Part shown: in pieces, positions 9,723 through 59,890 of the stretch | How positions within the stretch are numbered: the first letter of the stretch is position 1 | Layout of the letters: every line of letters begins with the position of its first letter | NCBI GenBank assembly: GCA_009781005.1 | Contig: WQYX01000006.1 | Location: 1 to 64,000 of the forward strand | Length of the DNA: 64,000 nucleotides | Reading direction: 5' to 3' | DNA from: Polyangiaceae bacterium | Lineage (GTDB): Bacteria; Myxococcota_A; Polyangia; Polyangiales; Polyangiaceae | Translations under genes and position numbers: made by a program | Notes under the pieces: generated by a model | What the model was told of the DNA's origin: nothing | The model's input: only the letters and a program-made list of their open reading frames with translations | Database searches by the model: none

Positions 9723-10039
9723 GCATGAGAAACTATATAATTTTTAGAAATCATACACTTACTATCTACTTAAAAAGACGCACGCCTGAGAGCGTGTTCG
9801 ACAGGCGTCGCGAGCGAATTGAGGCTAGGGCGGAGCGCGAGGAGCCCGCGCAAGCGTACGTTGTGGTACGTGCGCAGGCACCGCAGCGCCCAACCGACGA
9901 ATCGATTCGCGCAGCAGGCTGCCCTACACGCTCTGAGCGGCATCGCCCAACTTTGGCTAGGATGCGCGACGTCCAACCGCGGACCGGCATCATCGACGTG
10001 AAGAACGACGGCGCGGTCCGAGAGCGAGGTACGAAAAGG
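9723..10039. other. Gene-free region between fic and the TolC-type gene
   Basis: This 317-bp divergent region opens with a markedly AT-rich stretch (9730-9780) containing a perfect TATAAT at 9736-9741 on the plus strand, although no TTGACA is properly spaced from it. The middle is full repeat copy B (9786-9937). The last ~100 bp are unremarkable. The ORF-track extension of the TolC-type ORF into this region is repeat-derived and not considered real. Confidence 0.6.
9786..9937 (-). repeat. Structured repeat family, full copy B
   Basis: A 152-bp element with imperfect terminal arms (CTGAGAGCGTGT... / ...ACACGCTCTGAG). Its core on the minus strand reads GGTTGGGCGCTGCGGTGCCTGC...GCTCCTCGCGCTCCGCC. 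Its arms match those of copy E at 58251-58395, so these two are recent relatives. It sits in the fic/tolC divergent promoter region rather than after a stop codon. Confidence 0.8.
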
Positions 10040-11386
10040 ATGTGGCGACGATCGGTGTATAGTGCAGTTTTTTTTGGTCTCGTGAGCTTCGCGTCTCACC
10101 TCGTCAAGGCAGACCCGCAGACGCCCGTGCAGCCGTCGGCAGTTGCGCCCGGGCCCGACGCATCCGTCACCGAGCAGCGGCCGCCAATCTCTTCACCGAA
10201 GGTCACGTTCGAGGAGGCCATTCGCCGCGCCATGGAGCGCAACCCAAACAGCGAGATTGCCATGCAGGAGATCCGCCGATCGACGGCGCTCGCAGAGCAA
10301 GTGCGTGCAAACTGGCTGCCCACGCTCTCGGCAAATGGCGCGTACACACGTCTCGACAGCGATCGCGTTTTCGGCGGCAACGTCATGACGTACCGCGACA
10401 CGCTGACCGGAAACATCACGCTGACCGTGCCAATCATCCAGGCGCACAGCTGGGCGGCATCGGCGCGCGCGAACGAGACCGTGGATCTGGCCAAGCTCTC
10501 CGCCATCGACGCAAAAAAGCAGATTGCGATCACGACGGGCCGCGCCTTTCTGACGGTCATCGCGCAGCGCCGCGTGCTCGAGAGTTCGGTCAACGCGCGC
10601 GACACCGCTCTCGCTCACGAACAGTACGCAAAGTCGCGCCTCGAAGGTGGCATCGGCAACCGTCTCGATGCCGTGCGTGCGGGCCAGGAGCGCGCGTCCA
10701 GCGATGCGCTCGTGCAGACACAAACACTCGCACTCGAGCGGACGCAAGAGGCGCTCGGCGTATTGCTCGGAGAGAGCAGCCCCGTCGACGTCGTCGAGAC
10801 GAATCTGCCCGAGCCACCAACGCTCGCCGCCGCACTCTCCGAGGCCGAGAAATATCGGAGTGACGTCATTGCCCAGCGTCAACGCGTGGAGATTGCACGT
10901 AAAGCGGTGCGTGATGACTACACGGATTACCTGCCGCTCGTGAGCGCCGTTGCACAGCCTTTCTTGCAGACGCCGGCAACACCGACCGTCCCAGGGGCTG
11001 GCTGGCAGGCCCAACTCATCTTGGCTATCCCGCTCTACGATGGCGGTGCACGCTATGGTCTTGCTCACGAGCGCGCGGCGGTGCACGAAGAGGAGAAGGT
11101 CAGGCTCGACGGCATGCTTCGCCAGGCTCGCTCCGACGTTCGCATTTCCTTCGAGGGTGTTCGTCGTGCGGACGCGGCGCTCGTGGAAGCGCGCGAGGCC
11201 TCGAAGCTCGCCGCCGAGGCGCTCTCGCTCGCGCAGGACGCGTACTCTGCCGGCACCACGTCGAACCTCGACGTCATCGACGCCGAGCGTCGATCCCTCG
11301 ACGCCGCGACCGGTGCGGCCGTCGCCGAAGACGCGGCGCGCCAGGCCAGACTCGATCTCCTCTTTGCTTCAGGGCGTTTTCCCTGA
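10040..11386 (+). CDS. TolC family outer membrane efflux protein
   Basis: 448 residues from ATG 10040; the signal peptide MWRRSVYSAVFFGLVSFASH follows directly, and the upstream ORF extension is repeat sequence. TolC-family proteins form trimeric outer-membrane channels for RND/ABC efflux or type I secretion. The family pattern is clear: two similar halves rich in long Ala/Arg/Glu helices, FEEAIRRAMERNPN at the first repeat, LPTLSANGAYTRL entering the first barrel strand pair, and GAGWQAQLILAIPLYDGGARYG in the second half. No inner-membrane or periplasmic adaptor gene is adjacent. The stop codon forms the first bases of repeat copy C. Confidence 0.9.
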   Translation: MWRRSVYSAVFFGLVSFASHLVKADPQTPVQPSAVAPGPDASVTEQRPPISSPKVTFEEAIRRAMERNPNSEIAMQEIRRSTALAEQVRANWLPTLSANGAYTRLDSDRVFGGNVMTYRDTLTGNITLTVPIIQAHSWAASARANETVDLAKLSAIDAKKQIAITTGRAFLTVIAQRRVLESSVNARDTALAHEQYAKSRLEGGIGNRLDAVRAGQERASSDALVQTQTLALERTQEALGVLLGESSPVDVVETNLPEPPTLAAALSEAEKYRSDVIAQRQRVEIARKAVRDDYTDYLPLVSAVAQPFLQTPATPTVPGAGWQAQLILAIPLYDGGARYGLAHERAAVHEEEKVRLDGMLRQARSDVRISFEGVRRADAALVEAREASKLAAEALSLAQDAYSAGTTSNLDVIDAERRSLDAATGAAVAEDAARQARLDLLFASGRFP

Positions 11387-11530
11387 AACGCGTTTGCTAA
11401 CCTGCTGCGCGCCGCGATGCCTTCGTTGGGTCCTGCGGTGCCCGCGCACGTACAACAACGTACGCTTCCGCGGGCTCCTCGGACCCGCCTTGGCCTCGCG
11501 GCGCTCGCGACGGTTATCAAACGCGTTTCA
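11384..11530 (+). repeat. Structured repeat family, full copy C
   Basis: A 147-bp element. Arms TGAAACGCGTTTGCTAACC (11384-11402) and GGTTATCAAACGCGTTTCA (11512-11530) pair with one mismatch; the TGA is the stop codon of the TolC-type gene. Core helix GGGTCC pairs with GGACCC where other copies have GGGCCC/GGGCCC or GGGGCC/GGCCCC. Confidence 0.85.
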
Positions 11531-11651: not shown

Positions 11652-13250
11652 TTAGCGAGACATGAGCACGGCGTCCGTGCGCCGGTTGGCCAAGCGTCCT
11701 GCGGGGGTCGAATTGTCGCCGATGGGGAGCCGATCCAGTCGGCCCATCGTCTCGATGCGTGATGCATCGATGCCTTTGGCAACGAGTTTGTCTTTGACGG
11801 ACTTCGCGCGCTCGCGGGAAAGATGGATGTTGATGGATTCATCTCCAGTCGAGTCCGTGTGACCCACGAGGCGGATGTGCGAAGACGGGTGGTCCTTCAT
11901 CGCTTGCGCCAGCTTGTCGATGGATTCCTCGCCACCGGAGACCATGGTGGCTGTTCCGGTTTCGAAGTTCACGTTCGGCAGCGTGATGCGGCTGGGCAGG
12001 GGCCTTTCATCAGAGAATTGACGCGAGATGAAGTCGCGTGAGACTTTGTTTCCAGTTGCCCTCGCGCCCTTCTGCTCGATTTCTCCGCTGGTCAGCGACG
12101 TCCGCCCTGCGCCTGCGTCCTTCTTCTCTTCACGAGTCGCGGAGGTCTGTCCTGCATCCTTCTTCTCCGCTGCCTCGCTAGGCGTGGGCGCCGCCGCGTC
12201 TTTCTGCTCGATCTCTCCACTGGTCAGTGCGGCTTGCCCGGCGGCATCTTTCTTCTCCGCCATCTCTTTGTCGACCGCCGAGGTTTGCTCCGCCTCATGC
12301 TGCACCATCGCATCCGTGGCGGTTGGCCCACCATCTGTCTTTCCCAGCCAATCGGCGGCGGTGGTCTCCGCGTCCTTCCTCTCCTTGCCGATCTCTCCGC
12401 TGGTCAGCGAAGCTGCCCCTGCCTCAACGGATGGCAAAGCTACCCCCGCGTCGACGGGAGGCAGTCCAGCAAGTGGCCTTTGGAGCTGCGGCACCTCCGG
12501 CGCACGAACCGTCGGTGCTACTGAAGTGCCCAAGCGTGCGCCGCGCATGAAGTAAAGCAGGCCGCCGATGAGGAGCGCACCAACAGCGAGTCCGCCAAGG
12601 ATGGCGGGCCAAGATGGGCCATGCTTGTGCGGTGCGGTCACATCCACCTGCGGACGCTGGGGGCTGCGCTGAGCCACGCTGACGTGTGGCTCGGAGATGT
12701 CCGCATGCGTTCCGCCAAGCTCGGAGATATCGCGAATACCAATGGAGTTCGCGAGCCCAGTTGGCAGACTCGGATGTTCGAGAATCGATTTCTTCTGATT
12801 CATCAAGAGTTCGGACAGCCCGGCAGCGCCGAGCCCTCGCGTTGCGACTTGCTTTGCAAGCGAGCCTGCAACGAGCGGAGCGAGGAAGCCCATGATGCCC
12901 GATGCGGATTCGCGACGGATGCCATGCTGCTTCGAGAGCATGTCAGTGATGCGCCCGCCCGTGTCGCCGAGCATGCTCGAGCTGAGGCGGCTGCCGGAGG
13001 TCATCATCGACTTCGGATCTGTGATGGCGTCCCCCATGCGTGAGTGGTCCACATCTTTCAGGCTCGAGAGCAGCCCAGCGGCGCCAGATGTCGTCGAACC
13101 TCGATGCATGAGTCCTGCAAAGATCGATGGAACGGCCGACGAAATCGCGCCGCTCGTCTTGGCGGGGGTTTCGCCGATGGAGCCGGCAACCTTGCCGACG
13201 ACATCGGACGACAATCGCGCCTCGATGCTCTCAATCAAACTACCGGTCAT
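11652..13250 (-). CDS. DUF937 / OmpA-like peptidoglycan-associated fusion protein
   Basis: 532 residues from ATG 13250, which has AGGAGG about 9 bases upstream. Residues ~1-150 (LIESIEARLSSDVVGKVAGSIGE...) look like a DUF937 domain; a single TM helix follows at about residue 215 (WPAILGGLAVGALLIGGLLYF). A ~160-residue low-complexity linker repeats LTSGEIEQK-type units three times. The C-terminus is an OmpA domain: VNFETGTATM, then HIRLVGHTDSTGDESIN and LSRERAKSVKDKLV with the Asp/Arg peptidoglycan-binding pair. Predicted inner-membrane anchored with the OmpA domain binding peptidoglycan. The DUF937 role is unknown. Confidence 0.85.
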   Translation of the reverse strand: MTGSLIESIEARLSSDVVGKVAGSIGETPAKTSGAISSAVPSIFAGLMHRGSTTSGAAGLLSSLKDVDHSRMGDAITDPKSMMTSGSRLSSSMLGDTGGRITDMLSKQHGIRRESASGIMGFLAPLVAGSLAKQVATRGLGAAGLSELLMNQKKSILEHPSLPTGLANSIGIRDISELGGTHADISEPHVSVAQRSPQRPQVDVTAPHKHGPSWPAILGGLAVGALLIGGLLYFMRGARLGTSVAPTVRAPEVPQLQRPLAGLPPVDAGVALPSVEAGAASLTSGEIGKERKDAETTAADWLGKTDGGPTATDAMVQHEAEQTSAVDKEMAEKKDAAGQAALTSGEIEQKDAAAPTPSEAAEKKDAGQTSATREEKKDAGAGRTSLTSGEIEQKGARATGNKVSRDFISRQFSDERPLPSRITLPNVNFETGTATMVSGGEESIDKLAQAMKDHPSSHIRLVGHTDSTGDESINIHLSRERAKSVKDKLVAKGIDASRIETMGRLDRLPIGDNSTPAGRLANRRTDAVLMSR

Positions 13251-13688
13251 GGGAAATCCCTCCTTTCCAATCCTCGACTCTTTCTTGCGACATCCCATTT
13301 GACGCTGCGCCATGCAGAGCCGATGTCTCGAGCCGAACTGTGCGTGCGCCGTTTTGCTTGGCGCATCGACTGCGGCATTGGCGTTCGCAAGGTGCATGCC
13401 CATACGTTTCGATGTGCACGCCATCGCTCGCGCGCGGCGCCGCACGCGGCGAGCGCAATGAGATCGCGCCCGAGCACGCTCGGCTCGTGCGAGGCATCAT
13501 GCCTCCGAGCGCGACATTCATGGGCGCCCGATCGTCGCTCGTGAGAAGCCGAGAGGTGCGGAGCGATCCCCGCGCGCAGCGGCGGGCGCGCCGGATGCAT
13601 TCGCTCGCCGCAGCATTGTTTCTCAACGTTTCAGCCCGGCGGGAGAGCCGTCGCGAGCGGGAGCGACGACATTTTAAGGAGGCGCGTA
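13251..13688. other. Gene-free divergent promoter region
   Basis: 438 bp between the OmpA fusion gene (minus) and the ysnF-type gene (plus). Small ORFs here are GC-driven and lack ribosome-binding sites. It must contain both promoters, and both flanking genes have strong Shine-Dalgarno sequences. No copy of either repeat family is visible. Confidence 0.5.
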
Positions 13689-14991: not shown

Positions 14992-17321
14992 TTGAGCGAC
15001 CATCAACATCTCCTCTTGAATACCGCCGAATCCCTCTTTGGTCGTATCGACGAAATCCGCGCCACGCTGCATATCGACGGACAGCCCGACGACGCTCTCG
15101 TGGTCCTGTCCTTCAAGGGTGTCGAAAAGATATCTAAGAACTTCGTCTATAAAGTCACCGTGGCGAGCAGCGCCGAGGCAGCGGCAAAGCTGGATGATGC
15201 GCTCGGGCGCGATGTGCTCTTGACGCTCGGCCGCGCCTCGGACGAGTCGGCAACGCTTTTCGTCCACGGGATGATCCAGGAGGTGTGCCCAAGCGGCGTG
15301 GCCGCGGGCAAAAATCAGCGGCAAACCGTCTTGCGCATCGTGCCGAGACTTCAGGAGCTACGCCACAAGCAGCGATGCCAGGTCTTCCAAGACATGACCG
15401 TGGGGACATTGCCAAGGAGCTCTTCAAACCGTGGCAAATCGAAGTCGTCACGCGACTCCTTCCTGACCCTCTCAAGCGAGATTACTGCACCCAAGTCAAC
15501 GAGACCGACTTCGACTTTCTGCGGCGCATCCTCTCGGAGGAAGGGATCCACTTCCACTTCGAACAGGACGACAAGAAAGCCACCGTGGTCCTGGTCAACG
15601 ATCCACGCGGCTATCAACCCATTGCCGACAAGCAGACTATCGCGTACCGCGACGCCGGCGGCGCTCTGACCACAGATCATATCCGCACCATCGTGCGGGA
15701 GCGGCGCGTCCGTCCGGGGTCGGTTGCTTATCGCGATTACAACTTCCTCCGTCCCACGCGCGCCATGCTGGCGAGCAATGAAGCGACGGCGGAGGGTATG
15801 GGCACGCTTGTGGCGCGTGAGGTTTACGAATACCCCGGACACTACAACGATCCGGACGGCGAGAGCATCGGCGTGGGCGAGGACGTGCAAATTCCAACGC
15901 GCAGCGGCAAAGCGCGTGCGAAACTCCGGCTCGAGGAGCAGCGCGCGGACGTCTTCACGTTCTCGGGCACCACGAATTGCCTGCGCATGCGGGTGGGGAA
16001 AGTTTTCGAAATCAACGACCACCAAGACAAAGCCTTCAATCGAAAGTACACCATCACGCGCGTCGAGCTTCGCGGGGAGGGCGCCGGCGCGCCGGCGCTC
16101 GAGCAGGGGGCCAAGTCGGCAGGCACGGGAGTCTCCGTCACCTTCTGGGCTGTTCCAGCGGAGACACCCATTCGCCCGAAGGTGCGCCCGAAGCCGCCCG
16201 CGCACCTGCGCACCGCGCGCGTGGTAGGACCCAAAGAGGACGAGCCGTACGTCGATGAGTATGGCCGCATCAAGATCCAATTCGCGTGGGACCGAGAAGG
16301 CCCGCTCAACGACAAGAGCTCGTGCTGGGTGCGGATGGCTACCCCCGTGGCGCATCACAATCAGGGGATGTACACGGCGCATCGTGTAGGAGCCGAGGTC
16401 ATTGTTGATTTCTTTGATGGCGATGTAGATCGCCCCGTGGTGGTTGCATCCCTCTTCAACGAAGACAACCGGCAGCCGCAAAAGCTCCCTGACGATGCCA
16501 CGCGGGCGGGTCTCAGCATTCCAGGAAACAAGGGCAACAACGAAATCTCCTGCGAGGACAAGGCGGGACAGGAAGAGATCTTTGTTCATGCGCAAAAAGA
16601 TCTGAATGAGCGCATTCTGCACAACCACGATGAGAAGATTGGCGTCAACCAAACTTCTACCATAGGTGCGAATCAGACGGTGACCGTGGGTGCCAACCAG
16701 ACGGTAACCGTGGGTGCGAATCAAACCATTAGCGTGGGTGCCAATCGTACCGTAACGGTCGGAGCTGATGAGAACATCACTGTCATCCACAAGCGCACGG
16801 AAACCGTCCACCATGGCGAGCTTGTGACGATCAAGGAAGACGGCCGTGACCACACCATCTCGAAGGGGGACGACAAGCTCACCGTCTCGAGGGATAACCG
16901 GATCGTCGACGTGAAGAAAAAACACGAGATCCATTCGCAGTCGCGTGAAGAGAAGGTGGATACAACGATTGACGTGAATGCAGGGACATCCATTTTGCTT
17001 CATCACGGCAAAGATGGGAATCTTAGTATCGAAAAGGAGCTTGTGACGATGTGGACACCCTCGGCAGCCGTCACGATTGCCGGAGGCTTGGTCATGATCA
17101 ACGCCAACGATGCCATCGTGTTGACGTGCGGAGCCGCGAGTCTCAGGCTCGATAGCGATGGGACCGTTACCATCAATGGTTCAGCGTCGGTTGGTCTTAC
17201 GTGCAGCTCTTCGAAGCTCACACTCGAACCGTCAACGGCAGATCTCAAAGGCTCGAGCGTCAACGTGACGGCCAGCGGTATGATGGAGTTGCATGGTGCG
17301 TTTACCAGGATCAACTGCTGA
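14992..17321 (+). CDS. vgrG: Type VI secretion tip protein VgrG, interrupted by a frameshift
   Basis: VgrG trimers cap the T6SS tube. The gene is split: the first ~137 codons are in the frame starting at TTG 14992 (LLNTAESLFGRIDEI..., ending VFQDMTVG), and the rest is in the frame of the 15285-17321 ORF (DIAKELFKPWQIEVVTRLL...). Joining them at the GGGG of 15402-15405 by a -1 shift or one extra G restores the family-typical FQDMTVGDIAKELF and a ~776-residue protein. Later domains: gp27-like fold with NETDFDFLRRILSEEGIHFHFE, OB fold with RIKIQFAWDREG and SSCWVRM, and a C-terminal needle with repeated NQTVTVGA. No other T6SS structural genes are nearby, so this is an orphan effector island. Confidence 0.9.
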
Positions 17322-44760: not shown

Positions 44761-44774
44761 GGAGACCCCACCGC

Positions 44775-44842
44775 GGGGCAGGCACAGGGGCCTGCCCCTA
44801 CGGCCAACGACGCATTCGTAGGGGCGGCCCCCCGTGGCCGCC
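44775..44842. terminator. Triple-hairpin repeat between convergent genes (family 2, copy L)
   Basis: GGGGCAGG/CCTGCCCC, CCCCTACG/CGTAGGGG and GGGCGGCC/GGCCGCCC follow one another with shared arms, as at 2006-2071. It ends exactly at the rplT stop codon and begins 14 bp after the regulator's stop. The shared arms allow two alternative foldings. Confidence 0.7.
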
Positions 44843-45227: not shown

Positions 45228-45372
45228 AGAGGGTGTTTACCAGCCGTTGCGAGCGACGTGAGGCCAAGGCGGGCCCGAGGAGCCCGCGTAAGCGTACTGG
45301 TCGTACGTGCGCAGGCACCGCAGGGCCCAACGAAGGCATCGCGGCGCGCAGCAGGCTGGTAAACACCCTCTT
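45228..45372 (-). repeat. Structured repeat family, full copy D, inside the rpmI-rplT operon
   Basis: A 145-bp element. Arms AGAGGGTGTTTACCAGCC and GGCTGGTAAACACCCTCT pair perfectly; the outer edge includes two bases of the rpmI stop codon. Core helix GGGCCC/GGGCCC with conserved internal-loop strands TGCGGTG and GCTCCTC. Transcribed in the rpmI-rplT message, it would form a hairpin of more than 60 nt per side. Confidence 0.85.
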
Positions 45373-52737: not shown

Positions 52738-54205
52738 AACGCATTGTCGTTGTCTGCTCGTCGTGGCGTTGTTGGGCGCGCCCCTCGTCCTTCACGCGTC
52801 GCCCGTGATGGCGCAGGCAGCTCCTCCTGCGGGACACGAGGACGACTCCTTCGACGTCATGAACCTGCTCTCCCAGCATGGTCTTCACGACATCGACAAT
52901 GAGGCGTGGAATCTCTACGGGCAATTCACTTACGTCGCGAGCCAAAAGTTCGCGTTCAATGCAAAATACACGAATGCGAACGGTAGCGTGAATTCGCTCG
53001 TGCCGGGTGCCGAGCGGAGTTTCACGATGACCTTCACGCCGTTCTTCGGGCTCAGGCTCTGGCCCGGCGGTGAAGCGTATTTCGTCCCCGAGGTCATCGC
53101 CGAGCGGCCGCTCTCGAGTCTGCGCGGCATTGGCGGTTCCATTCAGATTTTCGAACTTCAAAAGGATGGCACGGTAACCCCTCAAATTTACCGCTCGCGC
53201 ACCTTTCTTCGCCAGACCATCAATCTCGGTGGCCAGCGCGTCAAGAAAGAATCCGACCCCATGCAACTCGGCGCAACGGTGGACAGCCGGCGCATCGTGC
53301 TCACGGGCGGCACGTTCACGATTCTCGACGTCTTCGACCACAACAACGTCACCTGGGATCCGCGCCAGACATTCGTGAACATGGCATTCATGACTCATTC
53401 GTCGTGGGATTTCGCGGCAGATGCGCGAGGGTATTCACTCGGTGGCACCGCCGAGCTCTATTGGGATGAATGGGCACTGCGCATCGGGCGCATGGCGCCG
53501 CCGTCGAATCCAAATCAGCTCCCCATCGTCATCGATTTTTTGCGCCAATACGCTGACGCGTTCGAACTCGAGCACGACCACAAGATCCTCGGACAACCCG
53601 GGGCTGCGCGTCTTTTGGCATACCGAAATCGTGAGATCACCGGACGCTTCAATGAGGCCATTGCGGCCTACGAAGCCGATCCCGTGGGCAGAAATGCCAA
53701 AGCATGCACTGGATTCAATTACGGCTCTGGCAATGCCACGGCGCCCGATCTTTGCTGGGTCCGAAGGCCGAATACCAAAGTGGGAATTGGCATCAATCTC
53801 GAACAATACGTGGCGAAGGATATCGGCCTCTTCTTCCGCGGGATGATCTCCGATGGGAAAACCGAAGTCGATGCCTTCGACCCCGCCGACCGTTCGCTCT
53901 CGTTCGGAAGTGTTGCCAAAGGCTCGGCATGGCACAGGCCTCTCGATGTCACCGGCATTGGGTTCGCATCGAGTTGGATTTCGAAGGACCACGCACGTTA
54001 CCTCGCCATGGGCGGTGTGGACGGCTTCGTGGGCGACGGCGCGCTCACGAAAGCTGCCGAATGCGTCGTGGATTTGTTTTATAGTGTGAATTTCCTTAGA
54101 GCCATTTGGCTGACTGCCGATTACCAGCATCTTTGGAATCCCGGATTCAACTCCGACCGCGGCCCCGTCAATATCCTTAGCGGGAGGGTCCATGCTGAGT
54201 TCTAG
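52721..54205 (+). CDS. OprB-like carbohydrate porin
   Basis: 494 residues from ATG 52721; the ORF-track start lies inside the preceding gene. Signal peptide MPVRTKTHCRCLLVVALLGAPLVLHASPVMA, then a beta-barrel protein ending in Phe (RVHAEF), the outer-membrane insertion signature. LLSQHGLHDIDNEAWNLYGQFTYV, the DVFDHNNVTWDPR region, and YSVNFLRAIWLTADYQHLWNPGFNSDRGPV resemble OprB/carbohydrate-selective porins. Probably a substrate channel for the neighbouring ABC transporter (inference). Confidence 0.85.
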   Translation: MPVRTKTHCRCLLVVALLGAPLVLHASPVMAQAAPPAGHEDDSFDVMNLLSQHGLHDIDNEAWNLYGQFTYVASQKFAFNAKYTNANGSVNSLVPGAERSFTMTFTPFFGLRLWPGGEAYFVPEVIAERPLSSLRGIGGSIQIFELQKDGTVTPQIYRSRTFLRQTINLGGQRVKKESDPMQLGATVDSRRIVLTGGTFTILDVFDHNNVTWDPRQTFVNMAFMTHSSWDFAADARGYSLGGTAELYWDEWALRIGRMAPPSNPNQLPIVIDFLRQYADAFELEHDHKILGQPGAARLLAYRNREITGRFNEAIAAYEADPVGRNAKACTGFNYGSGNATAPDLCWVRRPNTKVGIGINLEQYVAKDIGLFFRGMISDGKTEVDAFDPADRSLSFGSVAKGSAWHRPLDVTGIGFASSWISKDHARYLAMGGVDGFVGDGALTKAAECVVDLFYSVNFLRAIWLTADYQHLWNPGFNSDRGPVNILSGRVHAEF

Positions 54206-55346
54206 CCCGCTTCCGCTTTGGCGCGATCTCATCGTTGGGGCCTGCGCTGCGGTCCTCAAAGCCAAGAGGTTGTTCACTTCGCTTCGCTCCGTCGCTCTCA
54301 CTGCACTCCGTCCACTTCGTGGACTCCGTGCCGTTCGAGTCCGGTCGCTTCCCGTGCCCCGCCTCGACCTCGCGCCAAATCGTTTGCGGTCTAGCGTCGT
54401 GTTCGCGCTGGTTTTTGGTGTGGTAACAACATGGATATCGCCCGCGAAGGCCGAGCCGCAAGCCCTCGGCTTCGGCGTGGAGCGGCTCTCTCCGTCCGCG
54501 CCCGGCGCGGGCTGGTTTGTGCTCGATTCTCTCGATATGCACGGCGGCTTTGGTGGTGTGATGGGGCTCACGCTCGGCTATGCACACAACCCGCTCGTCA
54601 TTGACCGTGGGGGCCAGCATCTCGCGGTCATATCCAATCAAGCGTTCGTAGATTTCGGTTTTGCGCTCACGTATGACCGTTTTCGGCTGTATACGAATTT
54701 CGATAGACCCCTCGTCATCGAGGGAAAGAGTGGAACGGCTCTCGGCCGCACCTTCACGGCACCTGGCATCAATCCCGCCACGCCGCCCGATGTACTGACC
54801 GACGTGCGCATCGGCTTCGATGCGCGCCTTGTTGGCAGCGAAACGAGCCCATTTCGTCTTGGTGCGGGAATACAGCTTTTGGCTCCGAACGGTGAGCGCG
54901 AGAATTACGAAACGGATGGTACTTATCGCGTGATGGGGCGCGTGCTCTTTGCCGGTGATCAAGGACTCTTCACGTACGCGGGCCACCTCGGCGTGCACGT
55001 CCGTCCTCTCAACGACGCACCCACCCCCGAGAGCCCGCGCGGCAGCGAGTTGCTCTTTGCAGCCGGCGGCGGCGTGCGTTTGCCGGTCGGCGGCACCTCT
55101 CACGTGCTCGTGATCGGCCCGGAAATTTTCGGTGCAAGCGCGTTTCGCGCGCTGTTCGGAGGTGAGACCACGGCGCTCGAAGGACTCCTCTCGGGGCGGC
55201 TCGAAGGCACGGCCAGCGACGGGCCCCAACTTCGCTTCAAGCTCGGTGCCGGGGCCGGCATCGATCCACGTTTTGGCGCGCCTGACTTCCGCATGGTCTT
55301 TGGTATTGAAGTCTTCGATCGAGGCAACAGCCGCCACCTGAAGTAG
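54192..55346 (+). CDS. Outer membrane beta-barrel protein whose start was altered by an in-frame repeat insertion
   Basis: 384 residues from ATG 54192, which has GGGAGGG 6 bases upstream. After MLSS the reading enters repeat copy H for 63 codons (RDLIVGACAAVLKAK...RLDLAPNRL) and then reaches a normal signal peptide (VVFALVFGVVTTWISPAKA). Removing one TCTAGC duplicate and the insert restores MLSSSVVFALVFGVVTTWISPAKA. The mature part has amphipathic strands, Gly/Tyr/Phe-rich, typical of a small barrel. Whether the longer N-terminus still allows export is unknown; an in-frame TTG just before the signal core could serve as a new start. Confidence 0.75.
   Translation: MLSSSPLPLWRDLIVGACAAVLKAKRLFTSLRSVALTALRPLRGLRAVRVRSLPVPRLDLAPNRLRSSVVFALVFGVVTTWISPAKAEPQALGFGVERLSPSAPGAGWFVLDSLDMHGGFGGVMGLTLGYAHNPLVIDRGGQHLAVISNQAFVDFGFALTYDRFRLYTNFDRPLVIEGKSGTALGRTFTAPGINPATPPDVLTDVRIGFDARLVGSETSPFRLGAGIQLLAPNGERENYETDGTYRVMGRVLFAGDQGLFTYAGHLGVHVRPLNDAPTPESPRGSELLFAAGGGVRLPVGGTSHVLVIGPEIFGASAFRALFGGETTALEGLLSGRLEGTASDGPQLRFKLGAGAGIDPRFGAPDFRMVFGIEVFDRGNSRHLK
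54201..54395 (+). repeat. Structured repeat family, full copy H, with 6-bp target-site duplication
   Basis: TCTAGC at 54201-54206 and again at 54390-54395 flank the element. Arms contain TTTGGCGCGA and TCGCGCCAAA, where other copies have GTTGACGCGA/TCGCGTCAAC: a compensatory change. The core is ATCGTTGGGGCCTGCG; this copy carries an extra stem (GTCCACTTCGTGGAC). The offset between duplicates is 189 bp, so the frame is kept. Confidence 0.85.
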
Positions 55347-57230: not shown

Positions 57231-58195
57231 ATCGCCTGGCCGTACGTGTGCGTGTCGTTCGCGCGGCCGTGATCGTGTCGGCGATCTTCGCGCTCGTCGC
57301 CATCTTCGCGGATTTTCTGGCGAGCGATTTGCCCATCATGAGCAAGATCTCCGGCAAGATCTGGCTCTTTCCGAATGTCACCCGCCCGGCTGCACTCACG
57401 AAAATGACCGCGAGCGAGCGAGCGAACGCGACCGAGTGGCAACTTCCCGCGCTCGTTGCGCACGGACCCTTGATTGCCAACGAGGATCCCGCCGCGCGTC
57501 TTCGCGGTCCGTTCGCGCTGCCCGGGCATCCGCTCGGCACCGACCGCGCCGGTCGCGACATCTTCGCGCGATGCGTCCATGGCGCGCGCAACTACCTCGT
57601 CTTCGCGCTCGCTGCGGTCATCGCATCGCTCGTCTTGGGTAGCTTCTTTGGCGGTGTTGCCGGCCTCTTCGGCGGCGTCACGGACGCTTTCGTCAATCGG
57701 GCGATCGAGACGATCTCGGCTTTTCCCGCGCTCGTTCTCATCCTCGGCATTCAAGCCGCGGTTCCGCACGCAACGCTCACGACGCTCTTCTTTGCTATCG
57801 CGCTAACGCGCTGGCCGGAGATCGCGCGACTCGTGCGTGCCGAGGTCATGCGGATTGAGGCGCGCGACTACGTCATGGCCGCGCGCGCGCTTGGAGCTTC
57901 GCCGCTGCGCGTTCTCTGGCGGCACGTTCTGCCGAACATCCGCGGACAGGTCGCGGCGCTCGGCGCCTTCGGAATTCCCGCCGTCGTCCTCGTCGAAGCG
58001 TCGCTCGATTTCTTGCGCATCGGCATTGGCGAAACGACGTCTGCATCGTGGGGCGAGACCATGAGCCAGTTCCGCGGCGTCTCTCACGCTTGGTGGTTGC
58101 TCGCGTTCCCCGGCATTCTTCTTTTCGTCATGGTCGTAGCCATGAACATCGTGGGCGAAGCATTGCGCGCAAGCTCGGATCCACGCGGTCGTTAG
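57227..58195 (+). CDS. Dpp/Opp-type ABC permease, C subunit
   Basis: 322 residues. N-terminal TM, a periplasmic stretch leading to PGHPLGTDRAGRDIFARCVHGARN (the signature entry of DppC/OppC), five TM segments, and EAA loop ARDYVMAARALGASPLRVLWRHVLPNI. Together with the B subunit at 50594-52129 it would form the channel of a peptide- or nickel-type importer. ATPases and the binding protein must be encoded elsewhere. Overlaps the upstream gene by 4 bp. A nested repeat follows 2 bp after the stop. Confidence 0.9.
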   Translation: MNRLAVRVRVVRAAVIVSAIFALVAIFADFLASDLPIMSKISGKIWLFPNVTRPAALTKMTASERANATEWQLPALVAHGPLIANEDPAARLRGPFALPGHPLGTDRAGRDIFARCVHGARNYLVFALAAVIASLVLGSFFGGVAGLFGGVTDAFVNRAIETISAFPALVLILGIQAAVPHATLTTLFFAIALTRWPEIARLVRAEVMRIEARDYVMAARALGASPLRVLWRHVLPNIRGQVAALGAFGIPAVVLVEASLDFLRIGIGETTSASWGETMSQFRGVSHAWWLLAFPGILLFVMVVAMNIVGEALRASSDPRGR

Positions 58196-58197
58196 CC

Positions 58198-58467
58198 AGT
58201 TCCCATTCGGAAACTGCTGCGCGCCGCAAATCGTGGGTTCGGCCTCCCTCAGAGCGTGTAGGGCAGCCGTCGCGAGCGAATCGAGGCTAGGGCGGAGCGC
58301 GAGCACCGGGCGGAACAGGCTTAATGCCTTTGAGCACGGAGCGCAGCGCCCAACCGACGCATCGATTTCGCGCAGCAGGCTGCCCTACACGCTCTCAAAA
58401 TACTCCGAGTATTCCTCGTTCGGCCTCGCTAGCTTTGCGTCGCTCGCGACGTTTCCGAATGGGAACT
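58198..58467 (+). repeat. Structured repeat family, copy F, interrupted by nested copy E
   Basis: Arms AGTTCCCATTCGGAAAC (58198-58214) and GTTTCCGAATGGGAACT (58451-58467) pair perfectly. Just inside are the family ends TGCTGCGCGCCGC and GCGTCGCTCGCGAC. The centre is occupied by full copy E in the opposite orientation, so F was present before E inserted. Begins 2 bp after the permease stop. The gene-free 58196-58523 gap is essentially this composite. Confidence 0.8.
58251..58395 (-). repeat. Structured repeat family, full copy E (nested in F)
   Basis: 145 bp with perfect arms AGAGCGTGTAGGGCAGCC / GGCTGCCCTACACGCTCT, the same arm sequence as copy B about 48 kb away. Core helix GGGCGC/GCGCTC. 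Same arms in two distant copies show that arms travel with the element, at least in this branch. Confidence 0.85.
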
Positions 58468-58523
58468 TTGCCGGGGCGCGGGGGCTTGGTTCTCAGCATA
58501 GGATGCGTTACGTGTAGGCTCTC

Positions 58524-59716: not shown

Positions 59717-59768
59717 ACTCACCGCATCCCGGCACGTTGTACTCTATGAGATAGTACATCTTCAGCTA

Positions 59769-59890
59769 GACCGCTTTCAAGTTGACGTGAGGTCGAGGCG
59801 GGGCCGAGGAGCGGACCGGAACAGCCTTGAAGGCTTTGAGGACCGCACCGCAGGCCCCAACGAAGAGATCGCGTCAAATCGAAAGCGGTC
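59769..59890 (-). repeat. Structured repeat family, full copy I
   Basis: 122 bp. Arms GACCGCTTTCAAGTTGACGTGA and TCGCGTCAAATCGAAAGCGGTC. Core on the minus strand: TTCGTTGGGGCCTGCGGTGCGGTCCTC...GCTCCTCGGCCCCGCC. Its end includes two bases of the aminotransferase stop codon; lies between convergent fur and that gene. Confidence 0.88.

Follow-up and report, generated by a model that had tools for sequence, protein, structure and literature searches.

A palindromic repeat of Polyangiaceae-related genomes is probably a modular MITE family with a hairpin core common to Myxococcota and Burkholderiales

In G000, a Polyangiaceae-related draft genome of 4.77 Mb in 199 contigs, the gene for an outer membrane efflux protein ends within an imperfect palindrome that recurs along the window (the whole stretch of 64,000 nucleotides that was analysed), and its copies differ by matched base changes in their two arms. 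Compensatory changes are usually taken as proof of a functional RNA, and this locus raises the question of whether they reflect selection on the structure at each site, or instead arise from the way in which a mobile palindrome is propagated. We conclude that the repeat is probably a modular MITE family, with IS5-type ends in one subfamily and a core common to Myxococcota and Burkholderiales. The palindrome beside the efflux gene is referred to as copy C.

10055 to 11386, + strand: outer membrane efflux protein (OEP) gene (PF02321), ending at copy C
11384 to 11530, + strand: copy C, a C-type imperfect palindrome of 147 nt (fold z -9.0; 156.6 bits with covariance model R1)
11384 to 11386, + strand: TGA stop codon of the OEP gene, the outermost 5' bases of the palindrome
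11387 to 11402, + strand: left terminal arm AACGCGTTTGCTAACC, the C-type tip of copy C
11428 to 11433, + strand: 5' strand of the core helix, GGGTCC, covarying
11434 to 11440, + strand: conserved strand TGCGGTG, with a bulged T, G2, G4, G5 and G7 paired, and C3 and T6 mismatched
11474 to 11480, + strand: conserved partner strand GCTCCTC
11481 to 11486, + strand: 3' strand of the core helix, GGACCC, covarying
11512 to 11530, + strand: right terminal arm GGTTATCAAACGCGTTTCA of copy C
11652 to 13445, - strand: DUF937/OmpA-domain gene, convergent, on the far side of copy C

Copy C is predicted to fold at -91.9 kcal/mol as RNA, with none of 200 shuffles as low, and it also folds as DNA (-55, z -7.7); RNA and single-stranded DNA, both of which the preliminary description of this repeat had allowed, cannot be told apart from these data. 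The tip of copy C is GAACGCGTTTG-TAACC, and the 3' tip of the palindrome is TCA. The OEP domain reaches residue 440 of the 443 in the efflux protein, and the orthologous gene in the sister genome G009 (the termite-gut MAG WQZB01) has the same terminal codon, but as TAA. Neither an intrinsic terminator (GC-rich hairpin with a T-run) nor a promoter was found around copy C. The window holds these further copies:

739 to 808, - strand: copy A, partial, the left half (found with nhmmer; only 16.6 bits with R1)
9790 to 9933, - strand: copy B, B-type, tips GAGCGTGT.., flanks TCA/TCA
45229 to 45370, - strand: copy D, a C-type core with tips GAGGGTGTTTACCAG, flanks TAA/TAA
48804 to 48930, + strand: copy G, J-type, with convergent stop codons on its two sides
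54198 to 54391, + strand: copy H, J-type with extra sequence at its apex, lying between an OprB-porin stop codon and the next gene
58252 to 58394, - strand: copy E, B-type, inside another palindromic repeat, TGA duplicated
59766 to 59890, - strand: copy I, J-type, where an aminotransferase gene has its stop codon
63847 to 63973, + strand: copy J, J-type

The exact core pattern occurs six times in the window and never in shuffles. As had been described, the core helix is GGGTCC/GGACCC in copy C, GGGCCC/GGGCCC in D, GGGGCC/GGCCCC in G and I, and GGGCGC/GCGCTC, with one G.T, in B and E. The 3' strand in copy J, given earlier as GCCGCC, is actually GCCGGCCGCC, in which one G must bulge. The arms GTTGACGCGA/TCGCGTCAAC of J and TTTGGCGCGA/TCGCGCCAAA of H are both present. 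The strands TGCGGTG and GCTCCTC, which had been called unpaired, are so only at the bulged T and at the C.T and T.T mismatches, while G2-C7', G4-C5', G5-C4' and G7-C2' are pairs. Similarly, the statement that these strands hardly change does not hold as it stands: copy E has TGCGCTC/GGTGCTC, TGCGCTG is found in copy H, and TGCGCTG/GCTGCTC is common among J-type copies, with changes that are nearly always matched in pairs. The extra apical sequence of copy H has short inverted repeats of its own (CACTTCG..CGTGG). Other repeats in the window are a second palindromic family, GGCAGGCACGGGGGCCTGCCCC...GTAGGGGCGGCCC, at 2002-2059 and 44773-44830, which in G009 (L100) takes the place behind the efflux gene that copy C has in G000, and 24-nt tandem repeats inside an open frame at 16641-16760, with GANQTVTV-like units.

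The repeat is abundant in the two sister genomes and scattered beyond them. Two DNA searches of G000 returned 418 and 341 first-look candidates, and the search with copy C in its own genome yielded 47 matches from the 40 candidates scored of the 418. The model R1 found at least 150 matches in each of G000 and G009 and two in G005, whereas nine further genomes of the same genus had none. About 15 copies lie in 144 kb of sequence picked without regard to copies, and each genome probably holds several hundred, an estimate from sampled stretches rather than a census. At E ≤ 1e-5, R1 had matches in 12 genomes out of 282 from Myxococcota and in 21 out of 200 from the order of Noviherbaspirillum aerium; N. 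aerium itself has 37 matching places. An outer ladder, AACCTGCTGCGCG...CGCTCGCGACGGTT, is common to the Burkholderiales copies, and the weaker R1 matches among them depend on this ladder rather than on the TGCGGTG core; several have GAG-like tips and TNA flanks, as read by eye. The N. aerium copies L196-L223 have near-perfect tips CTAGGCTGTGTTTGATAAGC..GCTTATCAAACACAGCCTAG, and several of them end long open frames with TAG. A plasmid search with an N. aerium copy gave no match. The single match from a pattern search of viral contigs was unreported by R1 at E ≤ 1, and pattern-scan matches in Dactylosporangium, Sphingomonadaceae, Amycolatopsis and others are likely due to chance; R1 gave no confirmation for most of the other organisms listed. 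Rfam had no match at gathering or relaxed thresholds, and the open full-text literature, with subscription papers outside its scope, held no description of this palindromic repeat. It would be unusual for a single core to be combined with several transposon ends in two phyla, if this is borne out in complete genomes.

The tips vary among copies as blocks (TTCGAC/GTCGAA, TTTACC/GGTAAA, AGGGC/GCCCT), and one subfamily has the ends of a known transposon family. G000 has IS5-family transposases (NCBIfam NF033580, 140 bits; Pfam DUF4096/DDE) with the terminal sequences TGCTGTCGAACACGCTC and CCTGGTAAACATGCTC at their ends, and the sequences at the start are GAGCATGTTTACCAG in G000 and GAGGGTGTTCTACAG in G009; these 15-bp ends match the tips of GAG-tipped copies exactly or nearly. 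Identical three-base flanks border 24 of the 28 GAG-tipped copies, all of them TNA (TAA 8, TGA 7, TTA 6, TCA 3), compared to a mean of 6.4 and a maximum of 15 when flanks were shuffled. Duplication of TNA is a property of the IS427 and IS1031 groups of the IS5 family. Moreover, when the flanks of copy E are joined minus one TGA, the sequence is 90-91% identical to two uninterrupted repeats (L255 and L308). This third repeat core (..GGCCGAAC..AATACTCGGAGTATT..), which copy E splits into 58150-58251 and 58395-58480 of the window, has in common a ladder CTGCTGCGCG/CGCTCGCGACG, and L308 has a C-type tip. Copies are also stacked at three loci (L017, L025 and L072), the stacks being a C-type copy between the TGA of a gene and a J-type tip, and a B-type copy that has been inserted into a J-type tip with duplication of TTA.

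Comparison with G009 shows that sites differ in occupancy between the sister genomes. The element is absent from three orthologous gene ends in G009, and another subfamily is present at a fourth. At the site of copy C the interval is element-free rather than empty, as another kind of palindromic repeat, GGGCGGCCACGGGGGGCCGCCCC..., takes it up; the G009 gene of L086b has its stop at the identical TGA but no element there, and L076 is likewise without it. Behind the same stop codon at L018, the copy is C-type in G000 but J-type in G009 (L018/L124). At the gene end that has copy I, G009 has a degenerate J-type copy three codons away, and at L027 both genomes have related copies, that of G009 being truncated.

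These copies have the properties expected of MITEs: they are 120-147 bp long, numerous and putatively non-coding, with inverted ends, and their past mobility is seen in the nested copy E and in the G009 sites without the element. Target duplication and ends shared with an IS are found for the GAG-tipped copies. The C-type and J-type copies would belong to the same family by virtue of the shared core, the occurrence of C-type cores on GAG tips (in G009 and in copy D), the sequence identity of dispersed copies and their absence from orthologous sites. The C-type core has tips GAACGCGTTTG in G000 and GAGCATGTTTACCAG in G009, and hybrid tips exist. Against the MITE reading, no IS was found for the C-type tip, which copy C has, or for the J-type tip: among 35 exact C-type tips, two of which are on another repeat core, none flanks a recognised transposase, and a search for an IS with J-type tips found none. 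Neither tip has a clear target duplication, although about half of 17 C-type copies are flanked by TA/TA. A core common to two phyla also exceeds what a MITE needs. We propose an element with short inverted ends, which in the best-understood subfamily are the 15-bp IS5-family ends of the same genome or of G009, and a long imperfect hairpin with a central core, predicted to have a bulged T, a C.T and a T.T around G-C pairs. The shared ends suggest that an IS5-family transposase moves the GAG-tipped copies in trans and duplicates the TNA target.

To what extent the matched changes exceed common descent was examined with a tree-conditioned test, for which we used our own script in the manner of R-scape and not R-scape itself. 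For 41 copies, RNAalifold predicted 28 pairs, of which 18 have double changes, in sequences that are related because they come from one genome. With conditioning on the tree at E ≤ 0.05, the subfamilies of one genome had no significant structure pairs (C/B/T-type) or two (J-type). A combined MAFFT alignment of C-type and J-type copies misaligned the arms; separate and anchored alignments were used, and six chance matches were left out of the anchored alignment by name. A wider alignment took in 109 cores of Myxococcota and Burkholderiales, including 35 that come from neither G000 nor G009, and in it the pairs o2, o3, o4 and i1 were significant (E 0, 0, 0 and 0.02), all in the helix, with none elsewhere. 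A lack of covariation beyond phylogeny in a large alignment had been named as the refuting outcome, but at this depth the four helix pairs do covary, at E ≤ 0.02. The pairs G5-C4' and G7-C2' are always Watson-Crick across the 109 cores, with 5 and 7 independent double changes, although neither is significant on its own (E 0.77 and 1.7). In the same cores the C.T mismatch is CT in 108 and TT in one, and the T.T mismatch is TT in 100 and another non-pair in 9, neither ever being a pair; the bulged T is invariant.

Covariation does not separate selection from copying of one arm onto the other. If RNA of the + strand were under selection, one-sided changes should favour G.U, but on terminal branches we counted 30 G.T and 55 A.C, with no G.U preference. 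We counted 17 inner double changes confined to one or two copies, whereas about 0.1 would be expected if the two sides changed independently at the rate of private changes. An excess of more than 100-fold, with no excess of G.U, undercuts the earlier use of compensatory changes as proof of selection, and suggests arm-to-arm template switching. In RNA genes, template switching yields instantaneous, clustered compensatory changes in stems (PMC8794818). The loss of one base relative to the consensus from each arm of copy G fits such an event, and unsampled master copies could also be the source of private double changes. Pure homogenisation would repair the C.T and T.T mismatches; since they are kept, we infer selection in the mobile lineage for a particular imperfect hairpin as the best reading of the core. 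In the outer arms of GAG-tipped copies, covariation would arise because ends have been swapped among IS5-family transposases. The earlier claim of selection on structure is supported for the core, with its covariation and kept mismatches, but not for the outer GAG-tip arms, which follow captured IS5-family ends, and no result here points to protein binding by the internal loop that had been proposed as a binding site. The matching changes may thus have three sources: both ends have to fit one transposase and would change in step, one arm may be copied onto the other by template switching as the DNA is replicated, and the imperfect hairpin may be preserved by selection in the mobile lineage.

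Only 2 of about 87 copies lie inside genes. Genes in the sense orientation stop precisely where the element starts on its 5' side, and their stop codons are TGA, TAA and TAG in approximately the proportions of the genome. In G000 and G009, the copies that abut stop codons are sense-only in 43 cases, antisense-only in 4 and both in 3, with gene ends taken from a home-made gene caller, for which a gene truncated by insertion would likewise end at the element. Natural stops are supported by the OEP and OprB domains, which finish at or near the stop, and by orthologues that end at the same codon. Stop-codon residence may be due in part to the fact that TGA and TAA are themselves TNA, such that the duplication leaves the stop intact; TNA targeting accounts neither for the TAG stops and the strand bias nor for the tips of C-type and J-type copies. 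The antisense strand carries a purine-rich GAGGAGC that resembles a Shine-Dalgarno sequence. In N. aerium, the stop-codon copies appear mostly antisense, by inspection of small numbers, and a general RNA role is therefore uncertain.

The sense bias bears on two other explanations. According to one, which is compatible with the MITE reading as a second layer and which we consider a possibility, albeit a doubtful one, the element has been domesticated at 3' ends, where the sense hairpin ends or protects the mRNA, or antisense copies are harmful. The 43 sense-only versus 4 antisense-only copies in two genomes would be expected from such a role, as would different subfamilies at one orthologous stop (L018/L124), and MITEs at 3' ends do alter mRNA decay elsewhere, as with ERIC in Yersinia and RNase III on Correia elements (reviewed in PMC10969869). 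However, copy C is not an intrinsic terminator, as it has no T-run, many copies lie away from stop codons, recent changes lack an RNA-type constraint and the orientation bias may fail in N. aerium. The other explanation is that of the preliminary description, a cis-acting structured RNA or single-stranded DNA in which purifying selection at each locus maintains the stem and a fixed internal loop, perhaps a protein-binding site. The core covariation beyond phylogeny, the conserved mismatches with the invariant bulge, and a sense bias that puts the same strand into mRNA behind stops all favour it, but we judge it quite unlikely: recent one-sided changes have no G.U bias (30 versus 55 A.C), sister genomes differ in their copies at orthologous sites, Rfam has no match and the outer arms track transposase ends.

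Abundant palindromic extragenic copies beside stop codons would also be typical of a REP/BIME-like element, a single-stranded hairpin moved by a Y1 (IS200/RAYT) transposase. IS200/IS605 elements make no target duplication, whereas the GAG-tipped copies have TNA duplications and ends that match DDE-type IS5 elements. Furthermore, the sole Y1 transposase found in the genome is that of an ordinary IS200, with its own hairpins and unrelated ends, and an origin of this kind is very improbable. An IS200-type element of this ordinary kind, bounded by terminal hairpins of its own, lies at L108 (G000:C187).

Returning to the MITE reading, we add a tentative extension that is itself rather improbable: a hairpin module found across phyla may swap ends among transposases and settle in the sense orientation behind stop codons, where its core would act in the 3' region of the mRNA on a shared host factor. 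If this were true, the module would be a mobile 3'-UTR module tolerant of stop codons, whether selfish or symbiotic. By swapping transposase ends and copying one arm onto the other, a mobile palindrome may yield strong, even tree-corrected, covariation, and covariation scans of repeats need controls, namely G.U versus A.C counts, private double changes and matching of the ends. A genome that may hold several hundred hairpins, of which about half lie at natural stops with a roughly tenfold sense bias, would offer a system in which to study the filtering of orientation in 3'-UTRs.

Among known systems, ERIC and Correia/NEMIS elements (PMC10969869) are alike in being short and non-coding, with inverted ends and target duplication, and in lying between genes, often at gene 3' ends; their stable hairpin transcripts are a further likeness, although folding is only predicted here. 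As far as the descriptions of those elements set them apart, the repeat differs in having one GC-rich core with several IS ends and a core common to two phyla, and in its exact abutment of stop codons with a sense bias. IS5-family IS (NF033580) resemble the GAG-tipped copies in their 15-bp ends and in duplicating TNA, but of their sequence only the ends are in common, and the hairpin core is not part of the IS. REP/BIME with RAYT (PMC2817692) are likewise abundant extragenic palindromes, and differ in length, target duplication and transposase class. Finally, the maintenance of hairpins by template switching has been described for RNA genes (PMC8794818), and is here proposed for repeated mobile hairpins.
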